From positions 77,211 to 141,210 of the forward strand of contig JAHJRQ010000002.1 in assembly GCA_018830485.1 (NCBI GenBank): 64,000 bases of DNA, given 5' to 3'. This DNA is from Pseudomonadota bacterium (GTDB taxonomy: Bacteria; Desulfobacterota; Desulfobulbia; Desulfobulbales; Desulfurivibrionaceae). A program made the position numbers and the translations under genes. The notes beneath the pieces were generated by a model, which had not been told where the DNA came from, ran no database searches, and worked only from the letters and a program-made list of their open reading frames with translations. Of this stretch, positions 50,781 to 60,325 are shown piece after piece; positions within the stretch are counted from its first letter, which is position 1; the number at the start of each line of letters is the position of its first letter.

Positions 50781-52337
50781 ATGGTGGAGTCACATGAGGC
50801 GGTTTTTTTTGCGGATGAGCCGGAGGAGTCCGGTTCTTCCGGACAACAGTCCGTGGGGAACGGCGCCTGGAAGGTGCTGGTGGTCGATGACGAGGAAGAG
50901 GTGCATGCCGTCACCAAATTGGTGCTTGCCGACTTTACTTACGAGAACAAAAGGTTGCTCTTTCTGCACGCCTATTCCGGGAGGGAGGCCAGGGAGCTCA
51001 TTGCCGAGCATCCCGACACCGCCATCATTTTTCTTGACGTGGTCATGGAAAAAAATGATGCCGGACTCGATGTGATCCGCCATATCCGGGAGGAGCTGAA
51101 GAATTCCTTTGTCCGGATCATCCTGCGCACCGGCCAGCCCGGCCAGGCGCCGGCGGAGAAGGTGATCATCGAGTATGACATCAATGATTACAAGGAGAAA
51201 ACCGAGCTCACCGCCCAGAAGCTCTTCACCACCATGGTGGCGTCCCTGCGCTCCTACCGGGACATCCTTACCATCGAGGCCAACCGCAAGGGACTGGAAA
51301 AGATCATCGACGCGGCCACCTCCATCTGCCGTCTCCGTTCGGTCACCAATCTGGCCAGCGGGGTTCTGACCCAACTGGTGGCCATCCTCCATCTCAGTGA
51401 AAACGCCCTCTATTGTCAAACTTCCGGGATTGCGGTGGCCAATATCCAGGGCAGTTTCAAGATGCTTGCCGCCACCGGGGCTTACGAGTCGTATCTCGAT
51501 GCCGAGGCTGGGGGAGATTTGCCGGCCAAGGTTCTTGCCTATGTCCGGCAGGCCACGACGCTCAAGCAATCCATCTGCCAGGACAACCGCTACATCGGGT
51601 ATTTTTGCAGTGAGCGCGGGGAGGAAACGGTTATCTATATCGAGGGCTGGCGCGATCTCAGCGAGCTTGACCGCAGGATGATCGAGGTTTTTTGCGGCAA
51701 CGTCCAGGTGGCCTACGAAAATGTGCTTCTAACCCAGGAGATCGAAGCAACCCAGAAGGAGATCATCTATACCCTGGGCCAGCTTGCCGAGATGCGTTCC
51801 CTTGAGACCGGCAACCATGTCCATCGAGTGGCGGAATACAGCCGGCTGCTCGCGGAAAAACATGGCATGAGCCCGCGGGAGGTGGAGGTGATCCGTCTTG
51901 CCTCTTCCATGCATGATGTCGGCAAAGTCGCCATCCCCGATGCCATTCTCAACAAAACCGGGCCGCTCACCGCTGCCGAGTTTGAGATTATGAAGACCCA
52001 TACCAGCCGGGCCCGGGAGATGCTGGGTCTTTCCGACCGGAAGGTTGTCAAGGCCGCGATCGTCATCGCCATGCAGCATCACGAAAAGTTTGACGGCAGC
52101 GGCTATCCCAAGGGCTTGAAAGGGGAGGATATCCATATCAGCGCCAGAATCACCGCCCTTGCCGATGTCTTTGACGCCCTGGGCAGTGACCGTACTTACC
52201 GTCAGGCCTGGGAGATGGAGGCTATTCTTGATCTTATCCGCGCGGAACGCGGCGTGCATTTCGACCCGATCCTGGTGGATCTCTTTTTTGAAAATATAGA
52301 CACGATCCTGTCCATCAGAACCAACCTGGCAGGCTAG
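50781..52337 (+). CDS. response regulator with DUF3369 and HD-GYP domains
   Basis: This 518-residue protein has a receiver (~30-155: VVDDEEEVH, IFLDVVMEKND, RTGQPG), a DUF3369 region (~160-310) and an HD-GYP domain (~335-515) with SSMHDVGK, THTS, HHEKFDGSGYPKG, so the metal ligands and GYP are complete. It should hydrolyse c-di-GMP. The start is one base after the kinase's stop; the tandem genes form a kinase-to-phosphodiesterase pathway. The upstream open frame overlaps the kinase and is not used. Confidence 0.93.
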   Translation: MVESHEAVFFADEPEESGSSGQQSVGNGAWKVLVVDDEEEVHAVTKLVLADFTYENKRLLFLHAYSGREARELIAEHPDTAIIFLDVVMEKNDAGLDVIRHIREELKNSFVRIILRTGQPGQAPAEKVIIEYDINDYKEKTELTAQKLFTTMVASLRSYRDILTIEANRKGLEKIIDAATSICRLRSVTNLASGVLTQLVAILHLSENALYCQTSGIAVANIQGSFKMLAATGAYESYLDAEAGGDLPAKVLAYVRQATTLKQSICQDNRYIGYFCSERGEETVIYIEGWRDLSELDRRMIEVFCGNVQVAYENVLLTQEIEATQKEIIYTLGQLAEMRSLETGNHVHRVAEYSRLLAEKHGMSPREVEVIRLASSMHDVGKVAIPDAILNKTGPLTAAEFEIMKTHTSRAREMLGLSDRKVVKAAIVIAMQHHEKFDGSGYPKGLKGEDIHISARITALADVFDALGSDRTYRQAWEMEAILDLIRAERGVHFDPILVDLFFENIDTILSIRTNLAG

Positions 52338-53293
52338 CCCTCGTGCGCCTTCAAGGCATCGGCGATGAGCGGCCAGGTTGTGCGCAGCGCTTCCCGATCG
52401 GTAAAGGGGATGGTGAGGTGCACCTGGTCCTGTTCAAAGGAGGGCGAGTGATTGAGGCCCACCCCGCTGGGCAGCTTGAGCGCGGCGGCAAAGGCGCGGA
52501 ATTCCTCTTCCGCCTCGGTGAGCCTGGGGAAGCGTTGTTCGGTGAGCCACTGCATGAGCCGGGCTGTTTTTTGGGGGATGTTGGTCTCCTGCGGGTCAAG
52601 GATTTCCCGCACCTCTGGCTGGCTGAGCAGGGCCATGACCGAGGTGTTGTGCCTGGCGGCCATTTCCCGGCAGATGGCGGAGATTTTTTTTTGGTTGCTG
52701 ACGCTGAGGCTCAGCATCTCCATGACTTCGTACAGGGAAAGGCGGTCGGTGAAATTCAGGCCCAGCAGTTCCCTGGCCACCGCCTCGTGCAGCCGGCCGG
52801 CATGGAGCGCGGTGAGCAGGTGCTCTTCAAGCCGCAGCAGCGGCAACAGGCTTTGCAGGTGATGGCGGTGGGGTTCCAGCCCCAGAACGGGGAGAAACCT
52901 TTTGGTCGCCTCGTTTTCATCCAGATGAGCGAGGATCTTTTGGAAAAAGATCGCCTGCTCGACCACGGAGATGTTGCCCCGGAGCACGGTGTCTTCCAGA
53001 TTGATGGCCAGGGTTTCCGAGGGCAGGGTATCCGCCGGCAGCACCAGGCAGATGGTCGAGATGGAGTGCAGGGCCTGCTGGGCGGCCAGCAAACGTCTGC
53101 GGCCCGTGATGATCTCCATGCTGGTTCGCCCCTGTTCCCGGAGTATGGGCGGGTGGAGAATCCCGGCTCGGGCAATGGAATCCAGCAGCGCTGGGCTTGG
53201 TTCTCGTGCTTCTTCCGGGGTCAGGCTGTTGCGGAAATCCTGAAAATTGATGTGGTGCAGGTTGACAAGGCTTGAACGGAAGGTCGGCGGCAT
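52334..53293 (-). CDS. ParB-like nuclease-domain protein
   Basis: This 319-residue protein begins with a ParB/sulfiredoxin-like domain (~5-120): LLDSIARAGILHPPILRE, then ITGRRRLLAAQQALHSI, the (T/G)GxRRxxAA motif of ParB-N CTPases, and a helical part with LLGLNFTDRLSLYEVME and EMAARHNTSVM. It lacks an obvious ParB-C dimer end and its neighbours are not parA, so it is unlikely to be the chromosomal ParB. It resembles a stand-alone ParB-related DNA-binding or CTPase protein. The function is not established. Its stop overlaps the stop of the HD-GYP gene (convergent). Confidence 0.7.
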   Translation of the reverse strand: MPPTFRSSLVNLHHINFQDFRNSLTPEEAREPSPALLDSIARAGILHPPILREQGRTSMEIITGRRRLLAAQQALHSISTICLVLPADTLPSETLAINLEDTVLRGNISVVEQAIFFQKILAHLDENEATKRFLPVLGLEPHRHHLQSLLPLLRLEEHLLTALHAGRLHEAVARELLGLNFTDRLSLYEVMEMLSLSVSNQKKISAICREMAARHNTSVMALLSQPEVREILDPQETNIPQKTARLMQWLTEQRFPRLTEAEEEFRAFAAALKLPSGVGLNHSPSFEQDQVHLTIPFTDREALRTTWPLIADALKAHEG

Positions 53294-53361: not shown

Positions 53362-53438
53362 CTTCGACAAGCTCAGGGCGAACGAAGATGTTTTTATTTT
53401 AATTCAAATAACTACCGTTCGTGCTGAGCTTGTCGAAG
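53362..53438. repeat. 77-bp inverted repeat, CTTCGACAAGCTCAG type
   Basis: Arms 53362-53384 and 53416-53438 (23 bases) are complementary at 21 positions, with an AT-rich loop of 31 bases. This motif is a very common intergenic palindrome in environmental proteobacteria. It lies between the ParB-like and RibD-like genes. Confidence 0.85.
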
Positions 53439-53529: not shown

Positions 53530-54174
53530 GTGAAAGTAACCATCATCGCGGCCAGCACCATCTGCGGACGCATCGGCCCCGGCCTTACCGGCAGCTCGCT
53601 TGATCGCGGGCTGCTCGAAAGGATGCGGGCGGCAAGCGATGCCAGCCTGTTGGGCGCGGAAACCCTGCGCCAGGGCGACCCGGAGATGCGGGGGCCGGAG
53701 GGGGTTCTTTTGCCCAACCGGATCAGGGGGTTCATCACCGGCTCCGGAAATATCCCGGTGGCGGGGAAGAAAGTTTTCCGGCACGGGGAACCGCCCCTTA
53801 TCTTTACCGGGGCGGCAACGGCTGCCGGCTTGCGGCACAGGCTGGGCGCGCTGGCCCAGGTCGTTCCTCTGCCGTCTGCATCCGGAGGGGGGCTTTCCCT
53901 GGCCGCGGCCCTTGCCCATCTGGCACAACTCGGCGCGGCCTCGGTCCTGATCGAAGGCGGCGGCGGGTTGAACTACGCCTGCCTGCGGCAGGGGGTTGTC
54001 GATGAGATTCTCCTCACCCTGACCCCGAAGATTTCCGGAGCTCAGGGGGCGCCTTCCCTGTGCGGCGGCCCTGAGCCCCTGGGGGAGCCGTTTTTGCCGC
54101 TGGCCCTGGTTTCGTGCGAGGCGGCGCCAACGGGGGAAGTCTTTTTGAAATACCGGGTAGGCAAAGGAGAATGA
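53530..54174 (+). CDS. RibD-C/dihydrofolate-reductase-like protein
   Basis: This 214-residue protein resembles the C-terminal reductase domain of RibD (pyrimidine reductase) and DHFR folds: IAASTICGRIGPGLTGSSLDRGLLERMRAASDASLLGAETLRQG, then ASVLIEGGGGLNYACLRQGVVDEILLTLTP. It has the NADPH-binding look, but lacks the deaminase half of RibD and its substrate is unknown. The next gene's start sits on its stop codon, with AAGGAG before it, so a functional pair with the PP-loop protein is likely. GAGGGGCAACGTG precedes the ATG. Confidence 0.8.
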   Translation: MKVTIIAASTICGRIGPGLTGSSLDRGLLERMRAASDASLLGAETLRQGDPEMRGPEGVLLPNRIRGFITGSGNIPVAGKKVFRHGEPPLIFTGAATAAGLRHRLGALAQVVPLPSASGGGLSLAAALAHLAQLGAASVLIEGGGGLNYACLRQGVVDEILLTLTPKISGAQGAPSLCGGPEPLGEPFLPLALVSCEAAPTGEVFLKYRVGKGE

Positions 54175-54176
54175 CC

Positions 54177-54926
54177 ATGCAGCAGGAACTGGCGATCTTG
54201 TATTCCGGAGGGACGGATTCCCTCGCCCTCTATGCCCTGGCCAGCGCCGGGCATCATCCCGGCCTGCCCAGGCCGGTGCGCATTCATCTCCTCCACATGC
54301 TCAACGGCATGGGCCGCTTTGCCGATTTTCCCAGAAACCGTTTTCTTGCCGCGCACAAGATCCTGCTGGCCAATGCCTCCGATCCCAAGAAGATTCCGGA
54401 GGCCGAGATGGTGGAGCTTGACATGGGCCGGATGTTCCAGGGGTTGTGGCTCGACCGCTATGAGGAAATGATGCCCCGCTACAACGGGAAAAATCTTGTC
54501 TGCGTGGCCTGCAAGCTCGCGATGCACGCCCGGGCCATCGTCTATTGCCATGAGCATTTCGTTCCCCATTTCGTGGCCGGCTACACCAGGAAGCAGGGGC
54601 ATTACCCCGAGCAGACCCCGGTTTTCATGGAAAAGGTACGGGAGCTGTCCGCCCGGTTCGGGATCAACACCACCTTCCCGGTCTACGAGGATTTTGACGA
54701 CCAGGTGATCACCCGGCATGTGCTGGAGGATTTCGGACTGCCCTCCACGGGCGGGGGCGAGCGGAAATGCCTGTTCTGCCAGACCCTGACCACGGCTACG
54801 GAGAAGGAGATCGGCCAGTACCTCGACGACATGCTTCCCCTGGTCGGCGAGTATATTGAGCATCGTCTGGCCGGTCGGGTCCGCGAGGCGGCTCTCTGTT
54901 TTCCTCCCGGCAACCGGCGCGAATAG
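54177..54926 (+). CDS. PP-loop ATP pyrophosphatase with two CxxC motifs
   Basis: This 249-residue protein begins LAILYSGGTDSLALYAL (SGGTDS PP-loop), so it adenylates a substrate by ATP pyrophosphorolysis as in QueC, TilS and thiolation enzymes. CVACK (~106) and CLFCQ (~200) form two CxxC pairs that may bind zinc or an iron-sulfur cluster. The HLLHMLNGMGRFADFPRNRF and YTRKQGHYPEQTP blocks are not recognised as any named subfamily. An ATG at 54171 overlaps the RibD-like stop, but the ATG at 54177 has AAGGAG seven bases upstream. Probably acts with the RibD-like protein. Confidence 0.75.
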   Translation: MQQELAILYSGGTDSLALYALASAGHHPGLPRPVRIHLLHMLNGMGRFADFPRNRFLAAHKILLANASDPKKIPEAEMVELDMGRMFQGLWLDRYEEMMPRYNGKNLVCVACKLAMHARAIVYCHEHFVPHFVAGYTRKQGHYPEQTPVFMEKVRELSARFGINTTFPVYEDFDDQVITRHVLEDFGLPSTGGGERKCLFCQTLTTATEKEIGQYLDDMLPLVGEYIEHRLAGRVREAALCFPPGNRRE

Positions 54927-54985: not shown

Positions 54986-55010
54986 GGCGCAAGATATTTT
55001 GCGCCTTTGC
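54986..55010 (+). terminator. weak stem-loop after the PP-loop gene
   Basis: GGCGCAA (54986-54992) pairs with TTGCGCC (54999-55005) around GATATT, followed by TTT only. The stem is 7 bp. It may end the upstream transcript. Confidence 0.4.
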
Positions 55011-55158
55011 GTTGCTTTTTCTTGTTGTTCTCCTGCGTTATCCCGTGTTCACCCCCCTCCCCCTGGTCAAATTACATTGCGCCCCTTTCCTTGTGGCGCA
55101 GATTCCCTCGGCCTTGTTTTATAGCGCGAATTCATCCCTTTGTTTGTTTTGTTGGGGC

Positions 55159-55175
55159 TTGGCACCCAATTTGCT
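55159..55175 (+). promoter_or_regulatory. sigma-54 promoter of the octaheme cytochrome gene
   Basis: TTGGCAC-CCAAT-TTGCT matches the sigma-54 consensus (YTGGCACnnnnnTTGCW): GG at 55161-55162 and GC at 55173-55174, exactly 10 bases between. It lies ~100 bases before the start at 55274. No sigma-70 promoter is apparent in this 347-base gap. Confidence 0.7.
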
Positions 55176-55273
55176 TCTTGCAAACGGGATATGCTGCGTA
55201 TATTGCCTCTGTCATGGGGCCAGGAAAAGGGAAGAGTAACCGTTCATTTTTTATTAAGGAGGAGAAAAAGGCT

Positions 55274-56716
55274 ATGAAAAAATCCCGTGTATTCTCGGCA
55301 ATGCTGGTTGCGTCGGCTGTGGTGGCCGGCGGATCGGCCTATGCCGGCGAGGCGCACAAGGCGATCACCGGTCCTTTTGCCACGCCCATGGAGGTGACCA
55401 AGAAATGTCTTGAGTGCCATGCGGACGCGGCAACGGACATCATGCAAACCACCCACTGGACCTGGTCCAGCGAACAGGAGATCTCCGGCAAGAAGGGTAA
55501 GGTCGCGCTGGGCAAGAAGAATGCGGTCAATAATTTTTGCATCTCTGTCGATTCCAACTGGCCCCGTTGCACCAGTTGCCACATCAGCTACGGCTGGAAG
55601 GATGCCAAGTTTGATTTCACCGACAAAAACAGGGTGGATTGCCTGGTCTGCCATGACACCACCGGCACCTATAAGAAGGCGCCTCCCGCAGCCGGCATGC
55701 CCTTTGGCTTCACCGGCAACGCCGAATTGGACGCCAAGCCCGTTAATCTGGTGGCCGTGGCCCAGGGCGTCGGCAAGACAGCCAAGAAAAATTGTGTGGC
55801 CTGCCATGGCTTTGGCGGCGGCGGCAACAACGTTAAGCATGGGGATATCGATTCGTCCATGGTCAATCCCACCAAGGCCATTGACGTGCACATGGGCTCC
55901 GATGGCCTGAATTTTCAGTGCACCGAGTGCCACACCACCCAGAAGCATGAGATCAAGGGCAACTCCATGATCGTCACGCCCGGCGGCAAGAATCATCTGG
56001 AGTGCACCCAATGCCATGACGCCAAGCCCCACAAGAACGCCAAGCTGAACTCGCATGCCGCCACCGTGGCCTGCCAGACCTGCCATATCCCCACCTTTGC
56101 CAAGGCCATCCCCACCAAGGTCGAGTGGGATTGGTCCACAGCCGGTCAGGACATCACGGTGGACGAGCAGGTGTTCGGCACGGAGAAACGCGAGGGCTAC
56201 GACAAGAAGAAAGGCCATTTCAAGTGGGAGAAAGGCGTGAAGCCTACCTACAAATGGTACAACGGCAACGCCACCGTCTATCTGCGCGGCGAGAAGATCG
56301 ATCCGGCCAAGGTCACCGAGTTGAACGCGCCGGTGGGCAGCATCAAGGACAAGACCGCCAAGATCTATCCCTTCAAGGTGCATACCGGGAAGCAGATCTA
56401 CGATAAGGAAAACAAGTACTTCCTGACCCCCAAGGTCTGGCCGACCAACAAGGAAGACAAGGATGCCTACTGGAAGAATTTTGACTGGGACAAGGCGGCC
56501 AGGGCCGGCAGCGAGGCCTCGGGCCTGGCGTACAGCGGCAGCTACGATTTTGCCCCCACTGTCATGTACTGGCGGATCAACCACATGGTTGCCCCGGCAA
56601 GCGAGGCCCTGAAGTGTAACGACTGCCATGCCGCAAATGGCCGTCTCGACTGGAAGGCTCTCGGCTACAAGGGCGATCCCATGAAAACAAAAGGCGCTGC
56701 CAGGATGAAGAAGTAA
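55274..56716 (+). CDS. octaheme cytochrome c, tetrathionate reductase (OTR) family
   Basis: This is a 480-residue periplasmic multiheme cytochrome with a signal peptide (1-24, ending AYAG). Eight CxxCH sites are present: CLECH, CTSCH, CLVCH, CVACH, CTECH, CTQCH, CQTCH and CNDCH. The CLECH/CTSCH/CLVCH spacing and final KCNDCHAANGRLDWKALGY are like the Shewanella octaheme tetrathionate reductase family, which also acts on nitrite and hydroxylamine in vitro. The physiological substrate here is unknown. AAGGAGG precedes the ATG; a strong terminator follows. It is transcribed alone. Confidence 0.93.
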   Translation: MKKSRVFSAMLVASAVVAGGSAYAGEAHKAITGPFATPMEVTKKCLECHADAATDIMQTTHWTWSSEQEISGKKGKVALGKKNAVNNFCISVDSNWPRCTSCHISYGWKDAKFDFTDKNRVDCLVCHDTTGTYKKAPPAAGMPFGFTGNAELDAKPVNLVAVAQGVGKTAKKNCVACHGFGGGGNNVKHGDIDSSMVNPTKAIDVHMGSDGLNFQCTECHTTQKHEIKGNSMIVTPGGKNHLECTQCHDAKPHKNAKLNSHAATVACQTCHIPTFAKAIPTKVEWDWSTAGQDITVDEQVFGTEKREGYDKKKGHFKWEKGVKPTYKWYNGNATVYLRGEKIDPAKVTELNAPVGSIKDKTAKIYPFKVHTGKQIYDKENKYFLTPKVWPTNKEDKDAYWKNFDWDKAARAGSEASGLAYSGSYDFAPTVMYWRINHMVAPASEALKCNDCHAANGRLDWKALGYKGDPMKTKGAARMKK

Positions 56717-59794: not shown

Positions 59795-60325
59795 TTATTC
59801 ACCACCACAAACATCGCTGCTCGGTTCGCTCGCCCAATCCTCGGGACACAAACCTTTCATGACGTAATCATGAAAACTCGAGTAAGGCCATGCCTTGACC
59901 TGCTCAACCCAGCCGTGTTTTACCGGATTCCAATGAATATACTCGACATGGCGCTCAAAATCGACTTCATCCCGAAGCAAATGCTCCCAATAGCGCCGCT
60001 GCCAAATTCCCCGCTCTCCCCTGTTTATCCTGATCGACGATCTTCTTTCGGTGGCCGGCAAAGCGCGGGAGAATCCGGCCTTGATCAATGCCCACCTCGT
60101 TTTAAAATCGGCGGCCCCATGCGGCAAGGTGAATATGCAATGGAGATGCTCTGGAAGAACCACTATGGCATCGATGGAAAACGGATGCGACCGTTTCACT
60201 TTCGAGAACGACTGCCGGAGTAAATCGACATTTTCCGTGAGAGTCCGATTGCCCCGGCGTTCGGCACAGTTGACGGTGAAAAAGTACGAGCCACCGGTGA
60301 TCTTTGGCCGCCGATATTCAACCAT
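59795..60325 (-). CDS. REP-associated tyrosine transposase (RAYT, TnpA-REP)
   Basis: This 176-residue Y1-type single-strand DNA nuclease has the IS200/IS605-like HxH motif in VVLPEHLHCIFTLP (~57), the nucleophile Tyr in RHVEYIHWNPVKHG (~132) and the family blocks ITGGSYFFTVN and WQRRYWEHLLRDE. RAYTs recognise and cut REP palindromes. Here two inverted REP copies flank the gene, so this looks active or recently active. The start is taken at 60325; no strong ribosome site is seen. Confidence 0.92.
   Translation of the reverse strand: MVEYRRPKITGGSYFFTVNCAERRGNRTLTENVDLLRQSFSKVKRSHPFSIDAIVVLPEHLHCIFTLPHGAADFKTRWALIKAGFSRALPATERRSSIRINRGERGIWQRRYWEHLLRDEVDFERHVEYIHWNPVKHGWVEQVKAWPYSSFHDYVMKGLCPEDWASEPSSDVCGGE

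Follow-up and report, generated by a model that had tools for sequence, protein, structure and literature searches.

The window analysed here, 64,000 nucleotides of contig JAHJRQ010000002.1 from a genome of the Desulfurivibrionaceae (Desulfobacterota), holds two translationally coupled genes, one encoding a stand-alone RibD_C-type reductase (RED) and the other a PP-loop ATPase (PP), and the question raised by this locus is what the two enzymes make and from which substrate. The initial annotation, made from the sequence alone, had read the two open reading frames (ORFs) as coupled through a stop/start overlap with AAGGAG, had noted a P-loop and two CxxC pairs in PP, and had proposed an unassigned pathway for a tRNA, a cofactor or a small molecule. 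Both ORFs, an ATG of PP that overlaps the reductase stop, the AAAGGAG ahead of it and the motifs SGGTDS, CVAC and CLFC are all present (Table 1), and the pathway is still best called unassigned. The tRNA is the part of that proposal that loses ground, since the affiliation of PP with the YcfA/TgsB branch makes the introduction of sulfur into a small molecule of guanine type a better lead than generic adenylation or tRNA modification. The explanation favoured here, to which a probability of roughly 45% is given, is that PP is an Fe–S-dependent thiolase whose substrate is a guanine nucleotide or a pterin derived from it, and that the pathway leads to a thio-pterin-like compound in reduced and sometimes glycosylated form.

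The PP-loop protein and its relatives

The PP protein of the window matches no Pfam, NCBIfam or PADLOC family, and it lies above no curated cut-off for QueC, TilS, LarE, ThiI or TtcA in Pfam and NCBIfam. When 38 PP members were scanned, even the best matches were weak: Asn_synthase in Pfam (E 0.007, in 4 members) and, in NCBIfam, the model of an unrelated regulator (E 0.0047, 1 member), with LarE at 0.14 and TilS at 0.2. The sole convincing sequence match in the PDB is YcfA of Erwinia amylovora (phmmer E 5.8e-11, profile E 8.8e-12). The predicted model of PP, with a mean predicted local distance difference test score (pLDDT) of 80.4 and a predicted template modelling score of 0.84, leads to the same protein: Foldseek ranks 1–20 are all YcfA (5.5e-11 to 1.9e-09), and the structural comparison (VIA) gives Z 22.9 with a root-mean-square deviation of 2.5 over 215 aligned residues, the next entry being ThiI at Z 13.6, with QueC, MnmA/TrmU, ArtA, argininosuccinate synthase and LarE lower down at Z of about 11–13. 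The earlier view that PP does not closely resemble QueC, TilS or ThiI is therefore right in that PP falls outside the curated models, and wrong in so far as it left PP without relatives. As to whether PP sits firmly inside a known family, on which that annotation had made its proposal depend and for which it had called for structure prediction, the answer is divided, with no curated family on one side and the YcfA/TgsB branch, at the Z score just given, on the other.

Plasmids link PP with TgsB. When 72,556 plasmid records were searched with PP by tblastn (E 1e-3), there were five matches, three in Staphylococcus, one in Alicyclobacillus and one in Vibrio, and the one Staphylococcus plasmid examined carries the tgs-type order of a pyridoxal phosphate (PLP) enzyme, PP-loop protein, NUDIX protein, drug/metabolite transporter (DMT), second NUDIX protein and HAD protein. 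Such a tgs operon is described for 6-thioguanine synthesis in S. chromogenes (PMC7994395). Aligned with three TgsB-type proteins by hhalign, the PP profile gives E 2.3e-18 over 211 columns (29%), and N108, L109, K115, H119, Y125, H129, G137, Q142, E147 and Q148, among others, are common to both. Alignment A1 comprises 38 PP sequences, the window's included, out of 56 distinct ones, and the P-loop D16 is kept in 36 of the 38. YcfA (PDB 9kq6, 9kq7, 9kq9 and 9kqd, the entries being titled apo, ATP-bound, GTP-bound and ATP-GTP) and PP are alike in full-length fold, in the P-loop and in the NL..K..H, Q and EQ motifs; they differ in that identity is only about 18–24%, the three invariant cysteines of PP are, as aligned, replaced in YcfA, and the partner genes are others. 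These partners are themselves given differently, a review having both YcfA and YcfC as needed for 6-thioguanosine formation (PMC6225789), and the staphylococcal paper naming YcfA and YcfB instead (PMC7994395). TgsB of Staphylococcus resembles PP in the profile and plasmid matches described above, and differs in lacking the cysteine triad and in having as companions TgsA, TgsC, TgsD, TgsE and TgsF, none of which was found in the flanks of PP. That PP is a full-length member of the YcfA/TgsB branch is well supported by sequence and fold; an activity identical to theirs is not well supported.

The known PP-loop thiolases of thioguanine type belong to the synthesis of an antimetabolite in a plant pathogen and in some staphylococci, and the genes of the window could likewise make a secreted 6-thioguanine-type antimetabolite. 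Membership of PP in the branch speaks for this, and the patchy distribution described below would suit a weapon. Yet tblastn with TgsA, TgsC, TgsD, TgsE and TgsF (E 1e-4) gave no match in any of 103 loci, a search confined to the flanks (905,796 bases, redundant) and to these queries, with Erwinia YcfB and YcfC excluded, while a TgsB query, as positive control, found PP in 99 of the same 103. The PP set is therefore not the known tgs pathway moved to new hosts. Moreover, PP and RED lie on the sole contig of the one-contig genomes G019, G071 and G286, and the set has a cyclohydrolase paralogue of its own, which 6-thioguanine would not need, so that such a product is judged quite unlikely.

The cysteines set PP apart within its branch. 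C111, C114 and C200 are invariant (38/38 in A1), and C203 is Cys in 30 sequences, Ser in 7 and Gly in 1; in the three TgsB-type proteins C111 corresponds to Leu, C114 to Asp or Glu, C200 to Ser and C203 to Gly. PP thus has the three conserved cysteines, a CxxC and one more, that mark [4Fe–4S]-dependent PP-loop thiolases. According to three papers, TtcA, NcsA, Ctu1 and TtuA hold, or are modelled with, a [4Fe–4S] cluster on such a set of residues, and NcsA thiolates in vitro using inorganic sulfide (PMC10067955, PMC5372745, PMC6225789). The third cysteine follows some 86–97 residues on in PP (111, 114, 200), TtcA (122, 125, 222) and human Ctu1 (144, 147, 237). TtuA, NcsA and TtcA share with PP the order of PP-loop, CxxC and third cysteine; they differ from it in their added RNA-binding or zinc-finger domains, of which none is seen in PP, and the fold match is more distant (TtuA and NcsA at Z of about 10.5). 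The order and spacing of the cysteines are thus suggestive of the known Fe–S thiolases, and PP may hold a [4Fe–4S] cluster.

Resemblance to these enzymes bears on two further alternatives. One is that PP thiolates a tRNA guanine, which RED and the cyclohydrolase then modify further, and it can draw on ThiI, MnmA, NcsA and TtuA as fold relatives of PP. The 251-residue model is, however, a single domain matched by YcfA over almost its whole length, and no extra RNA-binding domain is seen in it; YcfA, the nearest relative, binds GTP, to judge from the entry titles; and a cyclohydrolase acting on free GTP misfits a post-transcriptional step, all of which makes a tRNA substrate very unlikely. The other keeps the operon and the guanine or pterin substrate, and has PP install nitrogen, in the manner of QueC or asparagine synthetase, with its cysteines binding a structural zinc. 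The PP-loop superfamily is generally known to use nitrogen as well as sulfur nucleophiles, two CxxC pairs can bind zinc, and QueC and ArtA are among the structural matches of PP. Nitrogen insertion is nevertheless held to be unlikely: the closest relatives of PP are by far thiolation enzymes, and C203 is lost in 8 of 38 sequences, several of them beside intact partners (L033, L055, L065), so that three ligands fit better than four.

A gene set larger than the pair

RED belongs to Pfam RibD_C (PF01872, 76.6 bits against a cut-off of 24.1). Seven NCBIfam models match it, the best being those of the pyrimidine reductase family and archaeal ArfC, but none at or above its cut-off, and it misses the ArfC/RibD equivalog cut-offs (TIGR01508, 57.3 of 186.45; PRK14059.1-1, 61.6 of 184). 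Its profile matches in the PDB include MthRED, MjaRED, Methanosarcina Rib7 and Rv2671, and the top match of its predicted model (mean pLDDT 78.1), at Z 21.0 and level with Rib7/RED, is Rv2671 with a bound dihydropteridine ring. With Rv2671 and the archaeal ArfC enzymes (MthRED, MjaRED, Rib7) it shares the stand-alone RibD_C fold and the EGG motif; apart from the equivalog cut-offs, it differs from them in that the family motif SLDG reads TLCG or TICG (TICG in the window), with a nearly invariant Cys12 (alignment A2, which comprises 36 of the 49 sequences). On sequence and model, RED is classed as an NADPH-type pyrimidine or pterin reductase.

The best matches of RED and PP in genomes of the same order have 58–98% identity (short fragments excluded), so the two ORFs are real and not due to chance; the closest named relatives of PP, by record title, are a Desulfobulbaceae bacterium (98%) and a Desulfurivibrio sp. 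(93%), among others. Both proteins were found in 75 loci (a redundant set, several places being present as two records), in every one of them on the same strand with RED upstream, at a median gap of 4 nt and with a gap of at most 30 nt in 55. The co-occurrence across genomes that the initial annotation had proposed as a check holds as well: among 58 relatives, PP is present in 37 and RED in the identical 37, both being absent from the other 21, and among 192 genomes of the class RED is present in 44, all of them among the 51 with PP (presence cut-offs were, in the 58 relatives, E 1e-15 for RED and E 1e-35 for the glycosyltransferase and, in the 192 genomes, E 1e-40 for the operon cyclohydrolase, the latter two genes being introduced below). 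The distances of RED and PP correlate (Spearman 0.56, 435 pairs of 30 loci), which is weak support at best because it reflects shared ancestry.

The neighbours, compared by tblastn in the fetched loci, show a recurring order of RED, PP, a family-2 glycosyltransferase (GT) and a GTP cyclohydrolase IB. Ten phylum-level genomes have a full-length PP; in 8 of them RED immediately precedes it, in 2 RED lies at another place in the genome (G331, 273 bits; G480, 244 bits), GT and cyclohydrolase follow PP in 9, and the four-gene order stands on one contig in 6 and spreads over two contigs in G371 (L092, L084). In several f3-family loci (L055, L068, L069, L128, L133–L135), RED, PP and cyclohydrolase follow one another with no GT between them. 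Within the genus of the window, GT and cyclohydrolase adjoin PP in one genome (L107), lie 1–13 kb off in others and are in some on another contig; in the window's own genome both lie beyond the right end of the window (Table 1). Since PF02649 proteins occur in all 58 relatives, the operon copy itself, which is an additional one, was used as the test for the cyclohydrolase: it is present in 46 of the 192 genomes, namely in 45 of the 51 with PP and in 1 of the 141 without (G005, 86% complete, of the same genus). GT is present in 34 of the 58 relatives, in 32 of the 37 with PP and in 2 of the 21 without, the latter being incomplete genomes of the window's genus. The functional unit is thus larger than the pair, and the cyclohydrolase paralogue and, in many genomes, GT belong to it.

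The window's genome has three PF02649 paralogues (contigs C7, C4 and C24), the operon copy among them. The operon copy scanned against NCBIfam was that of L065; it scores 168.3 bits with PF02649. In an alignment of seven operon cyclohydrolases with one canonical copy (8 sequences), C159, H182 and E271, which we take to be the catalytic residues, are kept. The operon paralogue shares with MptA and FolE2 the PF02649 family and the active-site Cys, His and Glu, and is unlike them in being an extra, divergent copy with an insertion between CPC and H.QR, under the cut-offs of both. It probably still opens GTP, and its product may be neopterin triphosphate or a cyclic phosphate.

Two alternatives turn on these counts. 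RED and the cyclohydrolase could be ordinary folate or riboflavin enzymes with PP as a passenger, as the nearness of RED to RibD/ArfC and to the dihydrofolate reductase (DHFR)-like Rv2671, and the feeding of folate synthesis by FolE2-type enzymes, would allow. RED was accordingly considered as a DHFR replacement and rejected: FolA is found in the window's own genome, in 19 of 37 genomes with PP and in 12 of 21 without (manual count), so that RED is no simple replacement. The operon PF02649 copy is additional in genomes all holding PF02649, a separate RibD-like ORF of 382–431 residues is present in the 4 phylum-level genomes checked (4/4), and PP and RED are together present or absent in 58 of 58; a folate or riboflavin role is considered improbable. 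The other alternative is that the genes are co-inherited lineage markers without joint function. Most occurrences are indeed in one order; the genomes are related, the counts (from sets transcribed by hand) are not independent events, and distant loci and dispersed cases therefore weigh more than totals; Fisher values for these sets take no account of relatedness and are given no weight here. It is precisely these that speak against mere co-inheritance, since the full order recurs in the phylum-level genomes as given above, and genes are retained where they are dispersed (RED in G331 and G480, the cyclohydrolase in G019 and G022), which leaves it extremely unlikely.

A proposed route to a thio-pterin-like compound

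PP, the cyclohydrolase, the reductase and GT all fit one guanine-derived molecule. In the favoured explanation, PP would adenylate the carbonyl oxygen at guanine position 6 (pterin position 4) and swap in sulfur, probably from inorganic sulfide bound at the free iron of a [4Fe–4S] cluster held by C111, C114 and C200. Most economically, the cyclohydrolase paralogue would open GTP, or 6-thio-GTP, to a dihydropterin, with thiolation by PP before or after ring opening; RED would reduce a C=N bond with NADPH, GT would add a sugar in many lineages, and the result would be a thio-pterin-like metabolite or cofactor, reduced and in many cases glycosylated. YcfA and TgsB are thought to use a PLP enzyme as sulfur supplier; direct use of sulfide by PP would account for the absence of a PLP enzyme and for the extra cysteines in sulfide-rich cells, and sulfide-fed Fe–S thiolation would suit sulfidic anaerobes. 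A more specific version, an undescribed Desulfobacterota cofactor pathway in which a dedicated cyclohydrolase, a sulfide-using Fe–S thiolase, reduction and glycosylation would yield a 4-thio-tetrahydropterin glycoside serving anaerobic sulfur metabolism, is doubtful.

Several results weigh against this explanation. On the side of the enzymes, hhalign aligns PP with E. coli TtcA over 16 columns of the P-loop only, the PP model has pLDDT below 50 around C200, PP-loop enzymes insert nitrogen too, the Rv2671 match of RED is tied with the pyrimidine reductases Rib7/RED, and the L065 cyclohydrolase misses its cut-offs (MptA, the nearest, 154.8 of 220; FolE2, 127.2 of 215). On the side of distribution, the 14 kb that were read of the distant PP-bearing genome G389 contain neither GT nor cyclohydrolase, and GT is absent from 5 of 37 genomes with PP and from several f3-family loci, because of which it is regarded as accessory. 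RED is missing from 7 of the 51 genomes of the class that have PP, 6 of which also lack the cyclohydrolase paralogue. Among these seven, G074, G078 and G120 have diverged PP copies, with the P-loop Asp changed in two; G100 (L066) has the P-loop GG changed to GD; and G175, G191 and G192 are 88–90% complete, the PP match of G175 being partial and the PP of G192 beginning at a contig end. Finally, PP is patchy: in the class sample 51 of 192 genomes have it, from 22 of 62 genera, so the product of the set is dispensable to many relatives. In the phylum sample PP is found in 18 of 296 genomes, one of them by a weak match only: the PP-like protein of G352 (about 30 bits, L095), which is weak against other PP-loop models and was left out. 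Second fragments in G009, G032, G071 and G371 add nothing to the genome counts.

In the open-licence papers searched, thiopterin, 4-thiopterin, thio-pterin and pterin-4-thione are not mentioned, and the YcfA PDB entry codes led to no relevant paper; among the matches listed there for YcfA/6-thioguanine, pterin glycosides and Desulfurivibrio PP-loop/cyclohydrolase, none describes a RED/PP operon. To judge from record titles, the PP-loop enzyme branch known for thioguanine recurs in anaerobic sulfate-reducer relatives, with added cysteines and pterin-type partners. If the favoured explanation is true, it would add a biosynthetic pathway and a sulfur-containing metabolite that are absent from the matches listed, and would point to a common ancestry of the thioguanine synthases with a metabolic thiolase. 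Because PP has a definite relative in YcfA/TgsB, what was a vague proposal becomes a testable one, that of an Fe–S-dependent thiolase with a guanine or pterin substrate, and the four-gene set can be expressed and its product read by mass spectrometry.

Gene coordinates, neighbouring genes and related loci

The GTG ORF listed for PP (54114–54926) is overlong. Two starts were considered by eye, ATG 54171, which overlaps the reductase stop, and ATG 54177, 7 nt past AAAGGAG, and the latter is the likelier because of its better spacing from that motif.

Table 1. Features of the RED–PP locus and associated genes. Positions are those of the window unless a contig is named; PP residues are counted from ATG 54171.
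Feature	Position	Strand	Description and basis
RED	53530..54174	+	Stand-alone RibD_C-type reductase, 214 amino acids, GTG start; PF01872, PDB profile matches, predicted fold
PP	54171..54926	+	YcfA/TgsB-branch PP-loop ATPase; 251 amino acids from ATG 54171, 249 from the likelier ATG 54177
AAAGGAG	54163..54169	+	Shine–Dalgarno-like, in the reductase tail, serves the PP gene; sequence
SGGTDS	54204..54221	+	P-loop motif, residues 12–17; conservation in A1
CVAC	54501..54512	+	C111 and C114, invariant, putative [4Fe–4S] ligands; 38/38 in A1
CLFC	54768..54779	+	C200 invariant, putative third cluster ligand; C203 in 30/38; A1
ParB/Noc-like gene	52334..53293	-	Divergent to the reductase; weak ParB_N, 25.6 bits against a cut-off of 26.3
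GT, window's own genome	C4:145230-146021		13 kb after PP, roughly 4 kb beyond the right end of the window
Cyclohydrolase paralogue, window's own genome	C4:146039-146920		Likewise 13 kb after PP and roughly 4 kb beyond the right end of the window

Within the order, the ParB/Noc-like gene recurs as a divergent neighbour of the reductase at many loci, and it is at none of L085–L094, which are from distant genomes; it is possibly a regulator, or a matter of synteny, and is not assigned to the pathway. Directly downstream of PP lies a gene for an octaheme cytochrome of the tetrathionate-reductase family (55007–56716, + strand; TIGR04315, 601 bits). Just upstream of the reductase, at 53363–53437, there is an inverted pair of TTCGACAAGCTCAG, which looks like a palindrome of the repetitive extragenic palindromic (REP) type and has only these two copies in the window at no more than one mismatch (0.02 expected); a small ORF at 59795–60325 (- strand) resembles, by eye only, a REP-associated transposase.

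Searches in other directions gave no Rfam family at gathering score upstream, in the window and nine loci, that would indicate a riboswitch, no PADLOC match that would indicate a defence system, and, as to a phage or viral origin, nothing in phage records with E 1e-3 as cut-off, the seven pattern matches in viral_contigs including no relative. The one PHROGs match of PP, to a phosphoadenosine phosphosulfate reductase family, covers residues 6–39 only (E 0.0016).

In two distant genomes the cyclohydrolase gene shares an overlap with a gene for the DUF166 (seleno)protein DfsP (L085, 5554–6174; L087, 5966–6598), and an in-frame TGA is present in 4 of 23 DfsP matches among relatives. As a fifth partner DfsP was rejected, being present in 13 of 37 genomes with PP and 10 of 21 without (manual count) and not found in the window's genome; nothing relevant to DUF166/DfsP is among the literature matches listed.

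The diverged PP copies of G074, G078 and G120 (L057, L058, L059) have the P-loop Asp changed to Asn in two of three and have lost C203 in all three. With no reductase, GT or cyclohydrolase nearby, they have as neighbours, by eye, DMT transporter-like, flavin adenine dinucleotide (FAD) oxidoreductase-like and rhodanese-like genes, the DMT-like gene giving no TgsD match at E 1e-4; these copies may have taken on a new function.

Among the plasmid matches of PP, a record of Alicyclobacillus acidoterrestris (L104, 6001–8711) carries a tgs-like set of PP-loop, NUDIX, DMT and HAD genes without the PLP enzyme, which makes this species a possible further producer of 6-thioguanine. In a plasmid of Vibrio coralliilyticus (L105, 5827–9576), a YcfA/TgsB-type PP-loop gene has three unnamed genes after it, all in its own orientation.

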